In this document: piece after piece, positions 1 to 8,853 of the stretch
Layout: each line of letters starts with the position of its first letter
Numbering within the stretch: position 1 is the stretch's first letter
Origin: Haloferax larsenii JCM 13917
GTDB lineage: Archaea > Halobacteriota > Halobacteria > Halobacteriales > Haloferacaceae
Direction of reading: 5' to 3'
DNA: 45,308 nt
Assembly: GCF_000336955.1 (NCBI RefSeq)
Contig: NZ_AOLI01000019.1
Location: 115,960 to 161,267, forward strand
Translations under genes and position numbers: made by a program
Notes under the pieces: generated by a model
Told to the model about the DNA's origin: nothing
The model's input: the letters and a program-made list of their open reading frames with translations, nothing else
Database searches by the model: none

Positions 1-115
1 TGTGTTTAGCACGTCTATAGAGTCCGCTGAGACCCTAACAACCAGAACGGAGAGATTTGATTTCGAGTCATATCCTCAGCAAGAACTTTCACCCACTCAT
101 CACAATTAGGTGTTC

Positions 116-1147
116 ATGAGCACCAACGACCGGCAGGACCGGGTTCCTGGGTTCGTCTATCTGGACATGGACCGAGTAAAATCCATATCGTCCCGTATCG
201 ATGAAGGCTATATCGAAGAGAAGGTGGAGGAGGAAGAGGAAAGTAGCGAACTCGCCGCGAGTCTGACGGGCAGCATCAAAGCGTATATTTTGGGTGTCGG
301 TTCCAGTTCGGTGAGTGGGACTGTCGAAGGCCGTACCGGGTCGACTTCCAGAACAGAAGAGTCTCGAGCACTACATCACTACTACTACCCGTTACTCGAA
401 GGCTGGTTAGAGGACTTTGAGGGAGAGTGGTTCCACGACGTAGACGACATCATTGACGATATCGAGGGGGATTACACCGAGCGTGCAGCCCGAAGTTCGG
501 TAGCTTCGGAAGTCTCGGAAGGCGATATCATTCGAGTCAGTGGCAGCGTTGAATTGCTGAATTTCTCGACTAGCATGGAGTTCGTCGATGGGATGCTAAA
601 CGCAGTCAATAGGCTCGAGGAAGTGTTAGATGATTCTGAGGACACAACTATTGACGAGGCACCAGCGGCAGAATCAGACATCATGCGCGAGGGTCTTACT
701 GAGGACGAGGAATCTCCCGTTGAAAATCTCACTGCAAATGACGTAGTCGGAGTCAGTCAAGAGGACCTGAGTGCGATTGAAGTGATGTTCGAGCTATTCC
801 ACGAGGTCATCCCAAGCCAGTACGAGGAGATGCTGGCAGCACGTATTCATCCATTCGAAGACGAATCTCCGCTCTGGTTCTGGGCGTTAGTTCAAGACGA
901 CAATCTGGATACCGACCCAGTCGAATTGCTATCGAAATACGAGACAAGTGAGATACCGAACTGCACAGTGGTTGCCAGAGTAGAGACAATCACGGAGAAC
1001 CCAGACGATGAAGACGACGAAAATGAAGAGGGAGAAGGGATTCAGTTCGGGACATTCCACCATTTTGCGGATGCGATAGCCTCTGATTTTGGCTTCAAGG
1101 TGAGCTATCCCGCAATCTCAATCTCACCGATTGCTATCTATCGATAA
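116..1147 (+). CDS. DUF6414-like protein, defence-island associated
   Basis: Predicted soluble acidic protein of 343 residues; function unknown. The opening (GFVYLDMDRVKSISSRIDEG) resembles the DUF6414 family, recalled from memory and often seen near phage-defence genes. A Glu-rich stretch follows at about residues 35-45, then a mixed alpha/beta body and a short Asp/Glu run near residue 300. No catalytic motif or membrane segment was recognised. The ATG at 116 is preferred to an in-frame GTG at 110. The gene converges on the minus-strand kwaB/zinc-ribbon block. Its A/T-richer codon use matches the Kiwa genes and differs from the GC-rich genes after 4750, which suggests it arrived with the island. 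A function in defence is inferred from position only. Confidence 0.6.
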   Translation: MSTNDRQDRVPGFVYLDMDRVKSISSRIDEGYIEEKVEEEEESSELAASLTGSIKAYILGVGSSSVSGTVEGRTGSTSRTEESRALHHYYYPLLEGWLEDFEGEWFHDVDDIIDDIEGDYTERAARSSVASEVSEGDIIRVSGSVELLNFSTSMEFVDGMLNAVNRLEEVLDDSEDTTIDEAPAAESDIMREGLTEDEESPVENLTANDVVGVSQEDLSAIEVMFELFHEVIPSQYEEMLAARIHPFEDESPLWFWALVQDDNLDTDPVELLSKYETSEIPNCTVVARVETITENPDDEDDENEEGEGIQFGTFHHFADAIASDFGFKVSYPAISISPIAIYR

Positions 1148-1207
1148 GTGCCTAGACCGCCATTCATAGGAGTCACAACCAGACTTCGTGAGACTGGCAG
1201 GTGGTGA

Positions 1208-1324
1208 TTATGCACGGAAGTTCTCGCCGCAACTTCGGCATGTAGCCCATCCTCCCTGTTTCACCTTCTGCTTCTCACCGCACTCAGGGCACTCACGCCA
1301 TACCGACCGATTTCGATGCGACAT
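1208..1324 (-). CDS. 38-residue zinc-ribbon microprotein (CPxCG type)
   Basis: A short frame encoding 38 residues from ATG to TAA. It contains two Cys-x2-Cys knuckles, CPECG at residues 12-16 and CRSCG at 29-33, with 13 residues between them (after the second Cys and before the third), plus basic and Trp residues. This is the layout of the one-domain zinc-ribbon microproteins that are common in haloarchaea. It lies 46 bases downstream of kwaB on the same strand, so it may be the last gene of the Kiwa transcript. Such proteins usually bind zinc and act through protein or nucleic-acid contacts. A job as regulator or partner of Kiwa is inference. Confidence 0.72.
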   Translation of the reverse strand: MSHRNRSVWRECPECGEKQKVKQGGWATCRSCGENFRA

Positions 1325-1370
1325 AGTTCACCTACACTCTGATGACGCTAATTCTTACTCCCACTCTCGA

Positions 1371-2342
1371 TTAGAGCCGCTGTCCGCTATCAATTTCCCA
1401 TTGCTCGCCCATGATATCGTCCTCAGCATATTTCGCCGCAAGCAGCTTAATCAGCTTCCAAGTATGCTGGTATTCATCTACGCCCAACTCGATTTGACCG
1501 TTTCGACGAGCGTAGTCTAGCGAGAAGCGGGTATCCAAATTGTATTTTTGAATCATGGCCTCGATTTTGTCGGGCGTGGCTTGCTCATGAATACCGTTAT
1601 CATAGATTTCGTACATCCCTCGAAGCATATTGATATGGCTCAGCATCCATCCAGTCGTCGTCTCGCGGTCAGCAAAGGTAATCCCCGCATCTTCGAACGC
1701 CTCGATAGCTTCCTCCGCTCGCTTTCTGTACTCCTCACGCATATCGAACATGCTCTCGAACGACTTTGGGGTGATAATGAACACCCACCCATCGTAGCAG
1801 ATGGCGTTGAGGTTTGGACGGATGACCAATAGGTCCCCTTGGAAGCGCTCGTACTCCTCGTTTTGATACCAGAGTGTGAGTTCGTTTGTCGTGTCGACCA
1901 ATTTCGCGTTACTGTAGTTTTGAACCCCAATCAGAACCTTCCCGTCCGGCTCACTGATGCGGATGAGCTGAAAATTCGGCTCAGGTTCTTCGGAATACGT
2001 CGTTGTCCCATCATTGTCTCTGGAATTCAAAATCTCGAATAGCTCGGAGTCCGGTAAATTCTCTATCCTGACACACTGTATTACCGACTCCTCGCTAATC
2101 GTGTTTGCAACGTCTAGAGGCCGTGCTCGTGTTCGACCGTCACGGAGGTTGTTAATCTGTTCTGTGAGGGCGTCTGAGACGGTTTGGGCAATCTCCTGTT
2201 GGACAAGGCGTCCAAGCTGAAGCTTCCCTACGTCCGGGGATTCTCCCTGTTTTCGAACAAGCAAAAACTCGGCTTCCGTCCGTCCCACCGCAAACTCCCG
2301 GGCTTCCTTGAGTTTTTCAGCGGGGTTCAGTTTTCCAGACAT
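1371..2342 (-). CDS. kwaB: Kiwa-like anti-phage protein KwaB (DUF4868)
   Basis: Soluble 323-residue protein resembling KwaB (DUF4868), the cytoplasmic DNA-associated partner of the membrane protein KwaA in the two-gene Kiwa system. Length fits the family (about 310-330). The central part reads NAICYDGWVFIITPKSFESM at about residues 190-210, the strand-turn-helix typical of DUF4868, and is followed by a helical C-terminal half. The ATG at 2342 begins MSGKLNPAEK and lies one base after the kwaA stop, so it is preferred to an upstream start at 2381 that would run into kwaA. Tight coupling to a membrane gene supports the Kiwa reading. The assignment is by remembered resemblance, not an alignment. 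Confidence 0.72.
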   Translation of the reverse strand: MSGKLNPAEKLKEAREFAVGRTEAEFLLVRKQGESPDVGKLQLGRLVQQEIAQTVSDALTEQINNLRDGRTRARPLDVANTISEESVIQCVRIENLPDSELFEILNSRDNDGTTTYSEEPEPNFQLIRISEPDGKVLIGVQNYSNAKLVDTTNELTLWYQNEEYERFQGDLLVIRPNLNAICYDGWVFIITPKSFESMFDMREEYRKRAEEAIEAFEDAGITFADRETTTGWMLSHINMLRGMYEIYDNGIHEQATPDKIEAMIQKYNLDTRFSLDYARRNGQIELGVDEYQHTWKLIKLLAAKYAEDDIMGEQWEIDSGQRL

Positions 2343-2343
2343 A

Positions 2344-2961
2344 TTATGGTGCGAGGTATGTGGTTCGACCGAGGGAGACAACCTCGATTTTCTTTCGCGG
2401 GTTGTCAGCCTCTTTTGTCTCAGGCAGTATCATTTTTTCCTCAATTGAGGACTTACTGATTACCAATAACACCTGTTCGTCACTTGTGACCTCATATACC
2501 TGATATCCCCGAAGCCCTAACATCGGGTTGACGTGCAATATCTCCGAGTTGATTTGGAGAACTCCCAATATACCGAAGAACACTAGGAAGATACCGAGGT
2601 CGAGCAGGGTCGTGAAATCCAGACCTGCGAAAACAAAAACGTAGACCAGTAGGTACATCGAAAGCAGTTCACTCCGCTTCTGGTACTTGTCGACTGGCTC
2701 TTGAGTGGTAGCACGACCTGAATGAACTGTGACCATCCGGTACAGAAGTGCGGTGAACAATACACAAAGCACCAGAAGCCCGATGGAGAGGTACGAGATG
2801 TATAGCCGGAAATCGATGTAAGGGATGTTGATAAGAGGAATTTTGTAACCCGCAATCAGGAGTGGAGGGACCTTCCCGAATTTCAACGCCATGATGAAGA
2901 ATAGCGGGACGTATGAGCTCAGGAAGAGAATGAACTTGACCGGTGCTCTGAATTTGCGCAT
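2344..2961 (-). CDS. kwaA: Kiwa-like membrane protein KwaA
   Basis: Membrane protein of 205 residues with about four hydrophobic segments: residues 8-27 (FILFLSSYVPLFFIMA), 50-75, 100-120 (LLVYVFVFAGL) and 120-140 (IFLVFFGILGV). A soluble C-terminal tail of about 65 residues follows. Size, topology and the N-terminal SSYVPLF motif fit KwaA, which senses infection at the membrane and works with KwaB. It sits 33 bases downstream of the DUF6884-like gene and one base before kwaB, so all three probably share a transcript. The identification rests partly on the kwaB neighbour, because KwaA proteins diverge quickly. Confidence 0.7.
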   Translation of the reverse strand: MRKFRAPVKFILFLSSYVPLFFIMALKFGKVPPLLIAGYKIPLINIPYIDFRLYISYLSIGLLVLCVLFTALLYRMVTVHSGRATTQEPVDKYQKRSELLSMYLLVYVFVFAGLDFTTLLDLGIFLVFFGILGVLQINSEILHVNPMLGLRGYQVYEVTSDEQVLLVISKSSIEEKMILPETKEADNPRKKIEVVSLGRTTYLAP

Positions 2962-2994
2962 AGTCGATTCTGCTCTTTTGTAATTGTCAATTGG

Positions 2995-3738
2995 CTAGTG
3001 ACCTAATCTTGATGGTGGATTTCGTTCTTGGTCAATATTCGCAAAATCCAGGTCGCTTTCACCAGACCCCATCTGCGCCAATTCTTCGCCCGACATTCTT
3101 TCCATCATCTGGAGGAACCGCTTTCCACGTAGTTCCATCCATGTCGTTTCGAGAGTCTGCCGTTCGGTCTCAGTGGCGGGAATCCATACACAATCGCCGA
3201 TGAACTGCTTACTCCCGTTCGAGGCAAACGCGAATGCTGTCGTTTGCTCTGGTATCCCGGTGAGAGCATCCATCACCGACAGAAGATACGGTTCACTCAG
3301 GACGACGAATAGCAAGTCATAGTCTCGACCCAGTACCGTACTGAACTCCTGAGGGATACCCTTCTCACGCCCGACTGCCTGAATCGTCTCGTTGTTCGTC
3401 AGAGTATCAATATCGTATCCTGCTTGCGTGGCCCGTGTTCGAACAGAGTCTATATCGCTGAACCCACACTCATAGGAGGGGATTTCGGTCTCGTCACGTA
3501 GCAATCCAAATCCTGCGGAGATGATATACCAGTCGACGTCCGCAATCTCACGGAGGTGATTGACTGCGGTCTTGACGTGCTGGTGTTCACGACCGGTATA
3601 CATTTCTGCCGCGGTGGTAGTGTACTCTCGATGCTCCTGTACTAACTCCTCGCGGGAGTGCTCATCTACGTCCTCACAATCGAGAACGGGGTCATATCGT
3701 TTGTCTTTGGAACACGGCGAGAGTACGAGGACGTCCAT
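2995..3738 (-). CDS. DUF6884/YaaA-like protein at head of Kiwa block
   Basis: Soluble 247-residue protein that starts MDVLVLSPCSKDKRYDP. The early Cys-Ser-Lys-x-Lys motif after a beta strand, the segment AEMYTGREHQHV near residue 45 and the strand YIISAGFGLL near residue 75 resemble DUF6884/YaaA-like proteins, some of which bind nucleotides or DNA. The C-terminal half is less recognisable (LLFVVLSEPYLL). The ATG at 3738 is chosen over an upstream one at 3765 because the strand and Cys motif follow it directly. It heads the minus-strand block leading to kwaA and kwaB and diverges from the GIY-YIG-like gene across 73 bases. A part in defence is inferred from context. Confidence 0.5.
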   Translation of the reverse strand: MDVLVLSPCSKDKRYDPVLDCEDVDEHSREELVQEHREYTTTAAEMYTGREHQHVKTAVNHLREIADVDWYIISAGFGLLRDETEIPSYECGFSDIDSVRTRATQAGYDIDTLTNNETIQAVGREKGIPQEFSTVLGRDYDLLFVVLSEPYLLSVMDALTGIPEQTTAFAFASNGSKQFIGDCVWIPATETERQTLETTWMELRGKRFLQMMERMSGEELAQMGSGESDLDFANIDQERNPPSRLGH

Positions 3739-3811
3739 CCGTTGTTCTACTCGAAGTCGTCGCACCGAGTGGTGAAACTCTTTGTGCGTGAATGAGAGGA
3801 ATCCTGTAAGA

Positions 3812-4540
3812 ATGGCTCGTCAGGACGACCTCGACCGCTTCTATGGCTTACTCGACGACCTTGAGCAACGAGTCGGCGGTACACGGAAACTCAAGAACTG
3901 CACTGGGTACATGGACTGGCCCGACCGTGGCGTCTACTTCTTCCTCGAACCGGGCGAGACGCGCGCCTCGACTGACCAATTGCGTGTTACCCGTGTCGGG
4001 ACACACGCGGTATCTGCGGGGAGCAGCACGTCGCTCTGGGATAGGCTGAAACAACACTACGGAACGGGCAGCGGGAGTTCCAACCATCCTCACGGGGGCG
4101 CTCACCGCGGCTCTGTGTATCGCAAGCGAGTCGGCGAGGCCATCATCGAGAAGCACGACCTGCACGACGACTATCCCGACTGGGACAAACGCTGGTCGAG
4201 CATCGAGCGTGAGCGGTCAGAAGTCCGTGACGAGGAATACAACCTCGAACGACGGGTGAGCACGTACATCCGCGAACAGCCGTTTCTCTGGGTGAATCTC
4301 GACGACGAACCGAGTACCGACAGCGACCGAGCGTACCTCGAACAGAACGTTATCGCTCTCCTCAGCAACTTCGACAAGCAACCGATTGACCCCCGAGGCG
4401 ATGGATGGCTCGGTCGGCACAGCCAGAGTCGGGCTATACGAGAATCAGGGCTTTGGAACGTGAATCACGTAGACGAGCGGTACGATAGTCGTTTTTTAGA
4501 CCTTCTTGAGAACGCTATCGACGAAACGACTCCATCATAG
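3812..4540 (+). CDS. GIY-YIG-like nuclease family protein
   Basis: Soluble 242-residue protein. GVYFFLEPGE at about residue 41, VTRVGTHAV at about 58 and SLWDRLKQHYG at about 73 match the order of the GIY-YIG fold: strand, strand, then helix with the conserved Arg and His. A later Glu in YLEQNVIALL (about residue 180) could be the metal-binding catalytic residue. A Ser/Gly/His-rich loop follows the first helix. The ATG at 3812 gives MARQDDLDRF and is preferred to a TTG at 3782. The gene diverges from the DUF6884-like gene and is the last intact gene before the island edge. Nuclease activity is plausible but unproven. Confidence 0.55.
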   Translation: MARQDDLDRFYGLLDDLEQRVGGTRKLKNCTGYMDWPDRGVYFFLEPGETRASTDQLRVTRVGTHAVSAGSSTSLWDRLKQHYGTGSGSSNHPHGGAHRGSVYRKRVGEAIIEKHDLHDDYPDWDKRWSSIERERSEVRDEEYNLERRVSTYIREQPFLWVNLDDEPSTDSDRAYLEQNVIALLSNFDKQPIDPRGDGWLGRHSQSRAIRESGLWNVNHVDERYDSRFLDLLENAIDETTPS

Positions 4541-4752
4541 GAAGGACGTCAGCCTGAGTCCTTTAATTCAGTCGTGTACCCGGGATTCTTTTACATTCGC
4601 ACACTGCTTCCAGCAAATGTATGGATAGAAAGTCGGCCTCGGCACTCATAGGGTTCCTCATCGTCGGGTGCCGAGTCCGACTCAGAGCGGTGCCATCGTC
4701 ATCGGCCACTCACCTCTACACACGCGGGATAAAAACCGGCAGGGATTCCACC
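4541..4752. other. Gene-free island edge with promoter-like boxes and broken frames
   Basis: This 212-base gap marks the change from lower-GC to GC-rich DNA. On the plus strand a T-rich box near 4588-4595 lies about 27 bases before an ATG at 4621. That frame starts MDRKSASALIGFLIVG, like a small membrane protein, and then becomes unconvincing. On the minus strand a strong TATA-like box (TTTTTATCC, 4728-4736) lies about 27 bases before an ATG at 4702 that meets a stop after six codons. Together these look like remnants of leaderless genes cut by insertion or deletion. No tRNA fragment or clear attachment repeat was seen. Confidence 0.4.
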
Positions 4753-7176: not shown

Positions 7177-7938
7177 TTACAGCCCGGTCGGGTGGCTGAT
7201 ATACTCGGTCTCGACACCCATCTCGTCGGCCATCGCGGCGAGGTTCCGAACGCCGAACGTCTCAGTGGCGTAGTGGCCAGCGAGGAACACCGTGAGACCG
7301 GCCTCGCGCGCTTCGTGGTACACCTTCTGTTTGCCTTCACCGGTGACGAGCGCGTCGACACCGGTCTCGACTGCCTCGTCCAGCCAGTCCACTCCAGAGC
7401 CGGTGACGATGGCGACGTCCGAAATCTCGTCGGGACCGAAGTCGATGACCTGCGTCCCTGCGCTTCCGTCGAGTTCGTCGAGCGCCTCGCGGACTTCCCC
7501 GGTCGTCTTGGGCGCGTCGAACACGCCGCGCTGACCGATGTGGACCGGACCCATGGAGCCGAACGGCTCCCGAACCCGGAGGTCGAGATGGTCCGCCACC
7601 CCGGCGGCGTTACCGAGTTTCTGGTGGCCGTCGAGCGGGAGGTGCGAGACGTAGAGCGCGATATCCTCGCGAATCAACGGTTCGACGCGGTCGAAGTTGC
7701 GGCCGGTCAGGCGGTCGAAGCCACCCCAGACGAGGCCGTGGTGGGTAACGAGCAGGTCCGCGTCGGCGTTGATTGCGGCGTCGATAGTCGCCTCGGCGGC
7801 ATCGACGGCGAAGACCGCCTTCTCGACGTCCGCGTCGTTGGGGCCGACTTGGAGACCGTTCGCGCTGGCGTCCACGTCCGCGAACTCGTCCGTGGCGAGT
7901 GTCTCGTCGAAGCGGGCGACGATGTCGGAGAGGTGCAT
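7177..7938 (-). CDS. NIF3-like dinuclear metal-centre protein
   Basis: Cytoplasmic 253-residue member of the NIF3 (YbgI/DUF34) family, whose toroid-forming proteins hold two metal ions. Ligand motifs are visible: THHGLVWGG at about residue 64, SHLPLDGHQKLGNAAGVAD at about 97-115, and HYATE near residue 222. Length is normal for the short form. Biochemical role in archaea is unsettled; older labels such as GTP cyclohydrolase type 2 are not well supported. It lies between agmatinase and deoxyhypusine synthase, 93 bases from each, so it may be cotranscribed with the hypusine genes. Whether it contributes to that pathway is unknown. Confidence 0.9.
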   Translation of the reverse strand: MHLSDIVARFDETLATDEFADVDASANGLQVGPNDADVEKAVFAVDAAEATIDAAINADADLLVTHHGLVWGGFDRLTGRNFDRVEPLIREDIALYVSHLPLDGHQKLGNAAGVADHLDLRVREPFGSMGPVHIGQRGVFDAPKTTGEVREALDELDGSAGTQVIDFGPDEISDVAIVTGSGVDWLDEAVETGVDALVTGEGKQKVYHEAREAGLTVFLAGHYATETFGVRNLAAMADEMGVETEYISHPTGL

Positions 7939-7983
7939 ACTCGCCAGTCGGCGTCCGGCGACTTGTAAGCCTGTGAAAGTAGT

Positions 7984-8031
7984 TCAGGCTCGGAACGAAT
8001 CTTCAAGGTCAGGCTCGGAACGAACCTTCAA
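7984..8031. repeat. Two tandem 23-base units, period 25
   Basis: The unit tcaggctcggaacgaa plus Ycttcaa occurs twice, at 7984-8006 and 8009-8031, differing at one base. The second copy abuts the agmatinase stop codon. Read on the minus strand beyond that stop, the pair encodes 15 more codons, so it may be a decayed C-terminal extension or a slippage product. No hairpin was found that would make it a terminator. Confidence 0.7.
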
Positions 8032-8853
8032 TTAGTCCTGCGCGTCGGCGGCCGCGTGTGAGAAGACAAATTCGCGGAGCAACTTCGCCGCCAACGACGC
8101 CGCTTGCCCGTCGTCGCGGTCGTTGACTTCGACCACGTCGAAGCCGTCTGCGGCGGGTGCAACACTGCGGACCACGTCGCGCATCTCGCGCGAGGTGAGG
8201 CCAAACGGCTCTTTCGTCCCGGTTCCGGGGGCGAACGCCGGGTCTGCGGCGTCGATATCGACGCTCAGATAGACAGTGTCGTCGTCGCCGAACTCCGGTT
8301 CCCAGTCGGGAACGTCCTCGGGTTCGACGACGGTCACGTCGTCGGCCTCGGCGCGCTCCCACTCATCGGGCGACCCGGTGCGAGCGCCGAGGATGATAGC
8401 CTCGTCTACGTTGAGTTCGTCGAGGACGCGACGGGTGATGGTTGCGTGACTCCACTCGTTGCCGTCGTACTCGCGGCGGAGGTCGAGATGGGCGTCGAGA
8501 CAGACGAACACGTCGGGGTCGACGCCGCCGACGCCAGCGGCGGTGATGGTGTGTTCGCCGCCGAGGAGGAGGGGAACGGCGTCGTCCCAGACGATATCGC
8601 GGACGCTCCCGGTGAGCCACTCGACGTACTCGGGTGCGTCGTCCCACGCACGGACGTCGTCCGCGTCGTGGACGTTCAGGTCGGTGAAAAAGTGGTCGGT
8701 GCGCCGGTCGTAGTCGTCGAACGACTCGGCGAACCGACGGATTCGATTCGGTCCGAAACGGGTCCCTGGTTGGAACGAAGTGGAGATGTCGAGCGGAGCG
8801 CCGAGCACGACGTAGTCTGCGTCGTCGCGGTCGGCTATCGCCCCGGGGAACAT
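8032..8853 (-). CDS. speB: Agmatinase (ureohydrolase family)
   Basis: Hydrolyses agmatine, or an aminobutyl-agmatine adduct during hypusination, releasing urea. The two-manganese site is complete: GGEHTITAAG (His about residue 99), CLDAHLDLRREY (DAHLD motif about 118-124) and SVDIDAADPAFAPGTGTKEP (about 197-216). Length of 273 fits archaeal agmatinases. It follows eIF5A by 15 bases on the same strand, and deoxyhypusine synthase is two genes on. This supports the agmatine route to deoxyhypusine proposed for haloarchaea, in which the ureohydrolase removes the guanidino group after or before transfer. It could act on free agmatine as well. Confidence 0.93.
   Translation of the reverse strand: MFPGAIADRDDADYVVLGAPLDISTSFQPGTRFGPNRIRRFAESFDDYDRRTDHFFTDLNVHDADDVRAWDDAPEYVEWLTGSVRDIVWDDAVPLLLGGEHTITAAGVGGVDPDVFVCLDAHLDLRREYDGNEWSHATITRRVLDELNVDEAIILGARTGSPDEWERAEADDVTVVEPEDVPDWEPEFGDDDTVYLSVDIDAADPAFAPGTGTKEPFGLTSREMRDVVRSVAPAADGFDVVEVNDRDDGQAASLAAKLLREFVFSHAAADAQD

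Follow-up and report, generated by a model that had tools for sequence, protein, structure and literature searches.

The Haloferax larsenii JCM 13917 genome encodes a true Kiwa system, a kwaA-kwaB pair that belongs to a distinct lineage in haloarchaea and is new as a described member and not as a kind. We put at roughly 0.8 the probability that, in this haloarchaeal Kiwa, KwaA functions as a membrane sensor and KwaB as a DNA-binding block, and that the pair is carried as cargo of a laterally acquired cassette at the small-RNA gene sR-tMet. In this analysis, Kiwa is identified by the homology and predicted fold of the proteins, by the order and co-inheritance of the genes, and by selection and the neighbouring defence genes. 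Its assembly, its sensing and DNA binding, and the protection it provides would follow by analogy with E. coli Kiwa, and an antiviral function of the haloarchaeal pair is suggested by homology. A Kiwa-type pair in a haloarchaeon had been proposed in a first-pass annotation of the window (the whole 45,308-nucleotide stretch of DNA analysed here), and profile matches, fold, gene order, and defence-gene context support this proposal.

The open reading frames (ORFs) were confirmed in the order kwaA then kwaB on the same strand, with only the base at position 2343 separating the kwaA stop codon from the kwaB ATG (Table 1). The four hydrophobic segments and the profile matches likewise agree with the earlier description of a four-helix membrane gene and a DUF4868/KwaB-like gene one base apart. 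The span first assigned to the pair, 1208-2961, covers both genes, although its left edge is the stop of a 38-residue zinc-ribbon ORF outside kwaB. This ORF is kept in Halorientalis persicus with one residue changed and is absent from other Kiwa loci, and a conserved third Kiwa gene was rejected because of this restriction to two genomes. The GC content is 0.494 for kwaAB and 0.515 for positions 1-4634 compared to 0.624 for the whole window, which bears out the observation that the pair lies in DNA of lower GC content.

Table 1. Features of the Kiwa cassette and its integration target (window coordinates).
Feature	Position	Strand	Description
kwaA	2344..2961	(-)	205-aa membrane protein with four predicted TM helices and predicted cytoplasmic beta segments; putative membrane sensor
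kwaB	1371..2342	(-)	323-aa DUF4868/KwaB-domain protein, pI 4.6; putative DNA-binding effector
Zinc-ribbon ORF	1208..1324	(-)	38 aa, CPEC...CRSC; directly 3' of kwaB
PDC-M57A / DpdC-like DUF6884 gene	2995..3765	(-)	33 bp upstream of kwaA; profile matches
PDC-M57B gene	3782..4540	(+)	Convergent with sR-tMet; PADLOC PDC-M57B 3.2e-70
DUF6414 gene	110..1147	(+)	Pfam PF19952 4.1e-24; in cassette between left repeat and kwaB
sR-tMet box C/D sRNA gene	4635..4707	(-)	Rfam RF02163, 65.7 bits, 1.7e-11; integration target
16-bp direct repeat, right copy	4633..4648	no strand	TCGGCCTCGGCACTCA; left copy 135 bases before window start, G000:C19:115825

Both proteins match the profiles of their families. The PADLOC KwaA profile matches KwaA of the window at 6.2e-23, and KwaB is matched by Pfam PF16162 (4.1e-19; 69.7 bits, exceeding the cut-off of 26.3) and by the PADLOC KwaB profile (1.5e-10). 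NCBIfam models NF041622 and NF041623 gave 56.7 bits (2.6e-15) for KwaA and 22.9 bits for KwaB and did not reach their equivalog cut-offs of 100 and 200, which are curation thresholds for naming and represent no biological feature; NF041623 is matched by 26/26 haloarchaeal KwaB proteins (best 2.2e-20). Searches of the PDB with single sequences gave a KwaA hit at no better than E 0.03 and no hit to a KwaB structure. Profiles built from 24 KwaA and 26 KwaB homologues match E. coli KwaA (9o0i/9mrg, 5e-14) and E. coli KwaB (6e-8), respectively.

The predicted structures lead to the same families. AF2 models were based on alignments including the H. persicus copy and viral-contig relatives, and have moderate confidence (pLDDT 71.9 for KwaA and 69.2 for KwaB). 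In Foldseek searches against the PDB, the KwaA model has only KwaA entries below E 0.001 (7 chains; TM 0.46-0.65, E 2e-8 to 1e-4, with 9mrx, 9mrg, and 9mrr first), and the KwaB model has only KwaB entries (6 chains; TM 0.55-0.56, E 2e-10). The first-pass annotation depended on a DUF4868 match for the 323-residue protein and on a membrane partner with the KwaA fold, and both were found.

Hydrophobic segments of KwaA at residues 8-26, 55-73, 99-117, and 119-137 correspond in the model to four hydrophobic helical regions (6-28, 51-81, 97-112, and 119-139), with beta segments following regions two and four. These beta parts would lie in the cytoplasm, and the loop at residues 29-50 would therefore be the main outward-facing part. 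This loop has high entropy and ranges from 4 to 33 residues among homologues. By contrast, Y103, Y107, N145-P146, and the LFLSSYxPL motif hardly vary, also outside haloarchaea. The pair had also been described as acidic and salt-adapted, which holds for KwaB (pI 4.6 in the window, with a haloarchaeal mean of 4.50 versus a bacterial mean of 7.11) and not for KwaA, which has a pI of 9.2 in the window and a smaller and less uniform shift between haloarchaeal (6.9) and bacterial (8.8) proteins.

Kiwa has until now been studied in bacteria. In E. coli, it is a membrane complex of KwaA tetramers and KwaB dimers in which KwaA senses infection and KwaB binds injected DNA, blocking replication and late transcription without cutting the DNA (PMC12904381, PMC12593503). 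By analogy, haloarchaeal KwaA in the cell membrane would detect a disturbance where the virus enters and would keep KwaB at the inner face of the membrane, where KwaB may bind the incoming viral DNA and block viral replication and late transcription, leaving the DNA uncut. As in E. coli Kiwa (9mrx, 9mrg, 9mrr, 9mtn, 9nyu, and 9o0i), kwaA is upstream of kwaB in a two-gene system of a four-helix membrane KwaA and a DUF4868 KwaB, and the predicted folds match nearly full length. However, identity in structure alignments is only 11-17%, both proteins are below the NCBIfam cut-offs, and the haloarchaeal proteins form their own clade, in a host in which RecC was not found. These differences (the clade aside) were counted against the mechanism, as were the moderate AF2 confidence (pLDDT 69-72, TM 0.46-0.65) and the strongly acidic, halophilic KwaB, which bears on DNA binding in high salt. 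The search of the H. larsenii JCM 13917 genome for a RecC homologue found none, and the joint action with RecBCD that has been reported in E. coli therefore cannot be carried over unchanged. NurA is present in the same genome, and any DNA-degradation partner must accordingly differ from E. coli RecBCD.

Kiwa is not a rarity in haloarchaea. KwaB is present in 26/391 genomes of the class (~7%). In the phylum sample, six genomes from outside the class's order also have KwaB, some of which are methanogens, and KwaB was found in 0/14 control genomes. A scan of viral contigs with the KwaB alignment and a search of phage records provided no lead. The gene kwaA is directly upstream of kwaB in 23 of the 26 haloarchaeal KwaB genomes, and likewise in H. 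persicus and on a Halobacterium plasmid; the exceptions, one locus each, lack kwaA, have a truncated kwaA, or have a truncated kwaB. In both trees, the haloarchaeal rows form one side of a supported branch (support of 100 for KwaB and 97 for KwaA), the main subclades match, and the sampled methanogen and bacterial copies fall outside the haloarchaeal clade. Five non-haloarchaeal loci of the same phylum, including methanogens (L093 and L095-L098), also have KwaB with an adjacent KwaA, although their KwaB is near-neutral (mean pI 7.0) and they lie outside the haloarchaeal clade in both trees. Rows of different families are intermixed in the trees, and thus lateral transfer among haloarchaea is likely. 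With few bacterial copies sampled, a bacterial origin of haloarchaeal Kiwa is likely; recent acquisition from bacteria was rejected because all haloarchaeal copies are in one clade.

Artefactual or chance ORFs were ruled out by the profile, fold, and selection tests and by the recurrence of the pair in many genomes. Bacterial contamination was also ruled out since the 740-kb contig is colinear with the relative G210 to the left and right of the island, and its acidic KwaB clusters with those of other haloarchaea.

The regions around Kiwa loci are rich in defence genes. At E<=1e-15, PADLOC families number 231 among 132 genes flanking Kiwa loci versus one among 93 control genes, which were taken from the window region and its close relative. 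The flanks are rich in PglX, BrxB, BrxC, DrmD, HmaA, and restriction genes, whereas control regions are nearly empty, and one kwaA-kwaB pair is located within a BREX-5 locus. The PADLOC candidate PDC-M39A/B is probably a Kiwa-related variant: its models match 14/24 haloarchaeal KwaA proteins and, weakly, KwaB of the window (0.0047), although these matches are much weaker than those of the KwaA and KwaB models. The strong divergence from E. coli Kiwa and the truncation of kwaA in one relative and of kwaB in another could point to a relic derived from Kiwa, or to recruitment of the pair to another role (membrane stress or plasmid exclusion), with virus defence lost. This is unlikely considering that kwaA and kwaB are under strong purifying selection (dN/dS against H. 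persicus of 0.06 and 0.02, respectively) with intact frames, that the pairing recurs, and that many known defence systems are found in the flanks.

A laterally acquired 4.8-kb cassette, inserted at the exact 3' end of sR-tMet and with a 16-bp direct repeat, carries the pair as cargo. Colinearity with G210 ends at C19:114016 and resumes at C19:120594, with 6.6 kb between the colinear parts here versus 1.1 kb in G210 (an ABC ATPase gene and a permease start). The right break in synteny, at window position 4634/4635, is the exact 3' end of sR-tMet (RF02163). The repeat contains the last 14 bases of sR-tMet, and its second copy is 4.77 kb away at C19:115825. Between the two repeats are M57B, M57A, kwaA, kwaB, the zinc-ribbon ORF, and the DUF6414 gene, and no integrase was found there. 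The assembly has single-N joints at G000:C19:115727 and 115959 (L002:17728 and 17960), the window starting right after the second, and an identical 93-bp sequence (a duplicated overlap) is found on both sides of each joint. The left repeat lies between these joints, and its linkage consequently rests on the assembler. Just left of the cassette, L002:16262-17120 holds two overlapping ORFs in different frames with no Pfam match, which look like one frameshifted precursor of a secreted cysteine-rich protein, halocin-like by eye.

The gene M57A, which shares the strand of kwaA and lies 33 bp upstream of it, matches Pfam DUF6884 (3.3e-7) and the PADLOC models DpdC (9.8e-14) and PDC-M57A (2.7e-5). 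A single 3.27-kb block (window 1209-4477) with 86% DNA identity is found in H. persicus in different surroundings, where the 17 kb examined contain no sR-tMet tail. This shared block with differing flanks, together with the position of M57A, would fit a composite defence system of four or five genes comprising kwaA, kwaB, M57A, and M57B with the zinc-ribbon ORF. Such a composite is improbable, however, and M57A and M57B were rejected as fixed Kiwa partners because tblastn found neither in 25 Kiwa regions of other haloarchaeal genomes. Homologues of M57B occur in 48/194 genomes, most of which lack Kiwa, and only some of the 48 also have M57A. The two-gene Kiwa system is the preferred reading, and M57A is an accessory gene, probably a separate candidate system.

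The association of M57B with sR-tMet recurs in other genomes. M57B and a mapped sR-tMet are within 25 kb of each other in 18/45 genomes, with M57B downstream in 17/18 and convergent in 17/17 of those (binomial P for the proximity about 1e-21, which assumes random placement and ignores relatedness). In two genomes, a second copy of the sR-tMet tail is <~100 bp from M57B, with another insert before the tail copy. M57B was rejected as always abutting an attachment repeat, as a repeat is within about 100 bp at only four loci. A search with 17 homologues found no Pfam or PDB relative of M57B at the thresholds used, and its sequence pattern looks GIY-YIG-like by eye. M57B may be part of mobility machinery, or else frequent cargo. 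A more specific and rather doubtful suggestion is that M57B is the targeting or mobility enzyme, and not a defence gene, of small cassettes that insert at the 3' end of the conserved sR-tMet gene and carry defence cargo, in this case Kiwa, from one haloarchaeon to another. At locus L185, M57B (7675-8403) lies 142 bp from the 3' end of tRNA-His (7460-7533) in convergent orientation, which suggests a second target site.

In related genomes, integration occurs repeatedly at the 3' end of sR-tMet, which makes this gene a hot spot: the sequence 3' of sR-tMet differs in each genome examined, while the gene on the other side is conserved (L132-L145, L190-L205). Four genomes have tail repeats of 12-16 bp located 2.5-9.1 kb away, and some of the inserts contain tyrosine integrases. 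In G188, a tail repeat of 15 bp and a tyrosine integrase occur within 9.1 kb, and in G017 two sR-tMet copies have integrases between them. G017, G100, G123, and G713 each have a second, partly diverged sR-tMet copy on the strand of the first and 1.7-18.7 kb from it, as expected from duplicated attachment sites. Kiwa was rejected as a regular passenger of sR-tMet since the two lie apart in other Kiwa genomes with a listed sR-tMet. A literature search on sRNA integration sites gave no lead.

In RefSeq-derived annotation, haloarchaeal KwaB is already labelled "Kiwa anti-phage protein KwaB-like domain-containing protein", and the label of kwaA is "hypothetical". The main text of a survey from 2026 that covers 7747 archaeal genomes makes no mention of Kiwa (PMC12988326). 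Our literature search, in scope mostly limited to papers outside subscription, found no experimental paper on archaeal Kiwa. The most original features are the surroundings of the pair, namely the sR-tMet integration site and the association with M57B.

Kiwa presumably detects the entry of a virus at the inner membrane. In haloarchaea, the only membrane is composed of ether lipids, and the cell interior is near salt saturation. With these traits, and with no RecC found in the H. larsenii JCM 13917 genome, the haloarchaeal clade allows the universal parts of sensing and DNA capture to be tested, and strains with or without Kiwa, in genera having cultured relatives, offer a direct test system. 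A box C/D sRNA gene as an integration site, together with a recurring neighbour of fixed orientation, is a lead on how defence cargo moves in archaea. If M57B does act in mobility, a small-RNA gene would be a hot spot for defence genes, as tRNA genes are.
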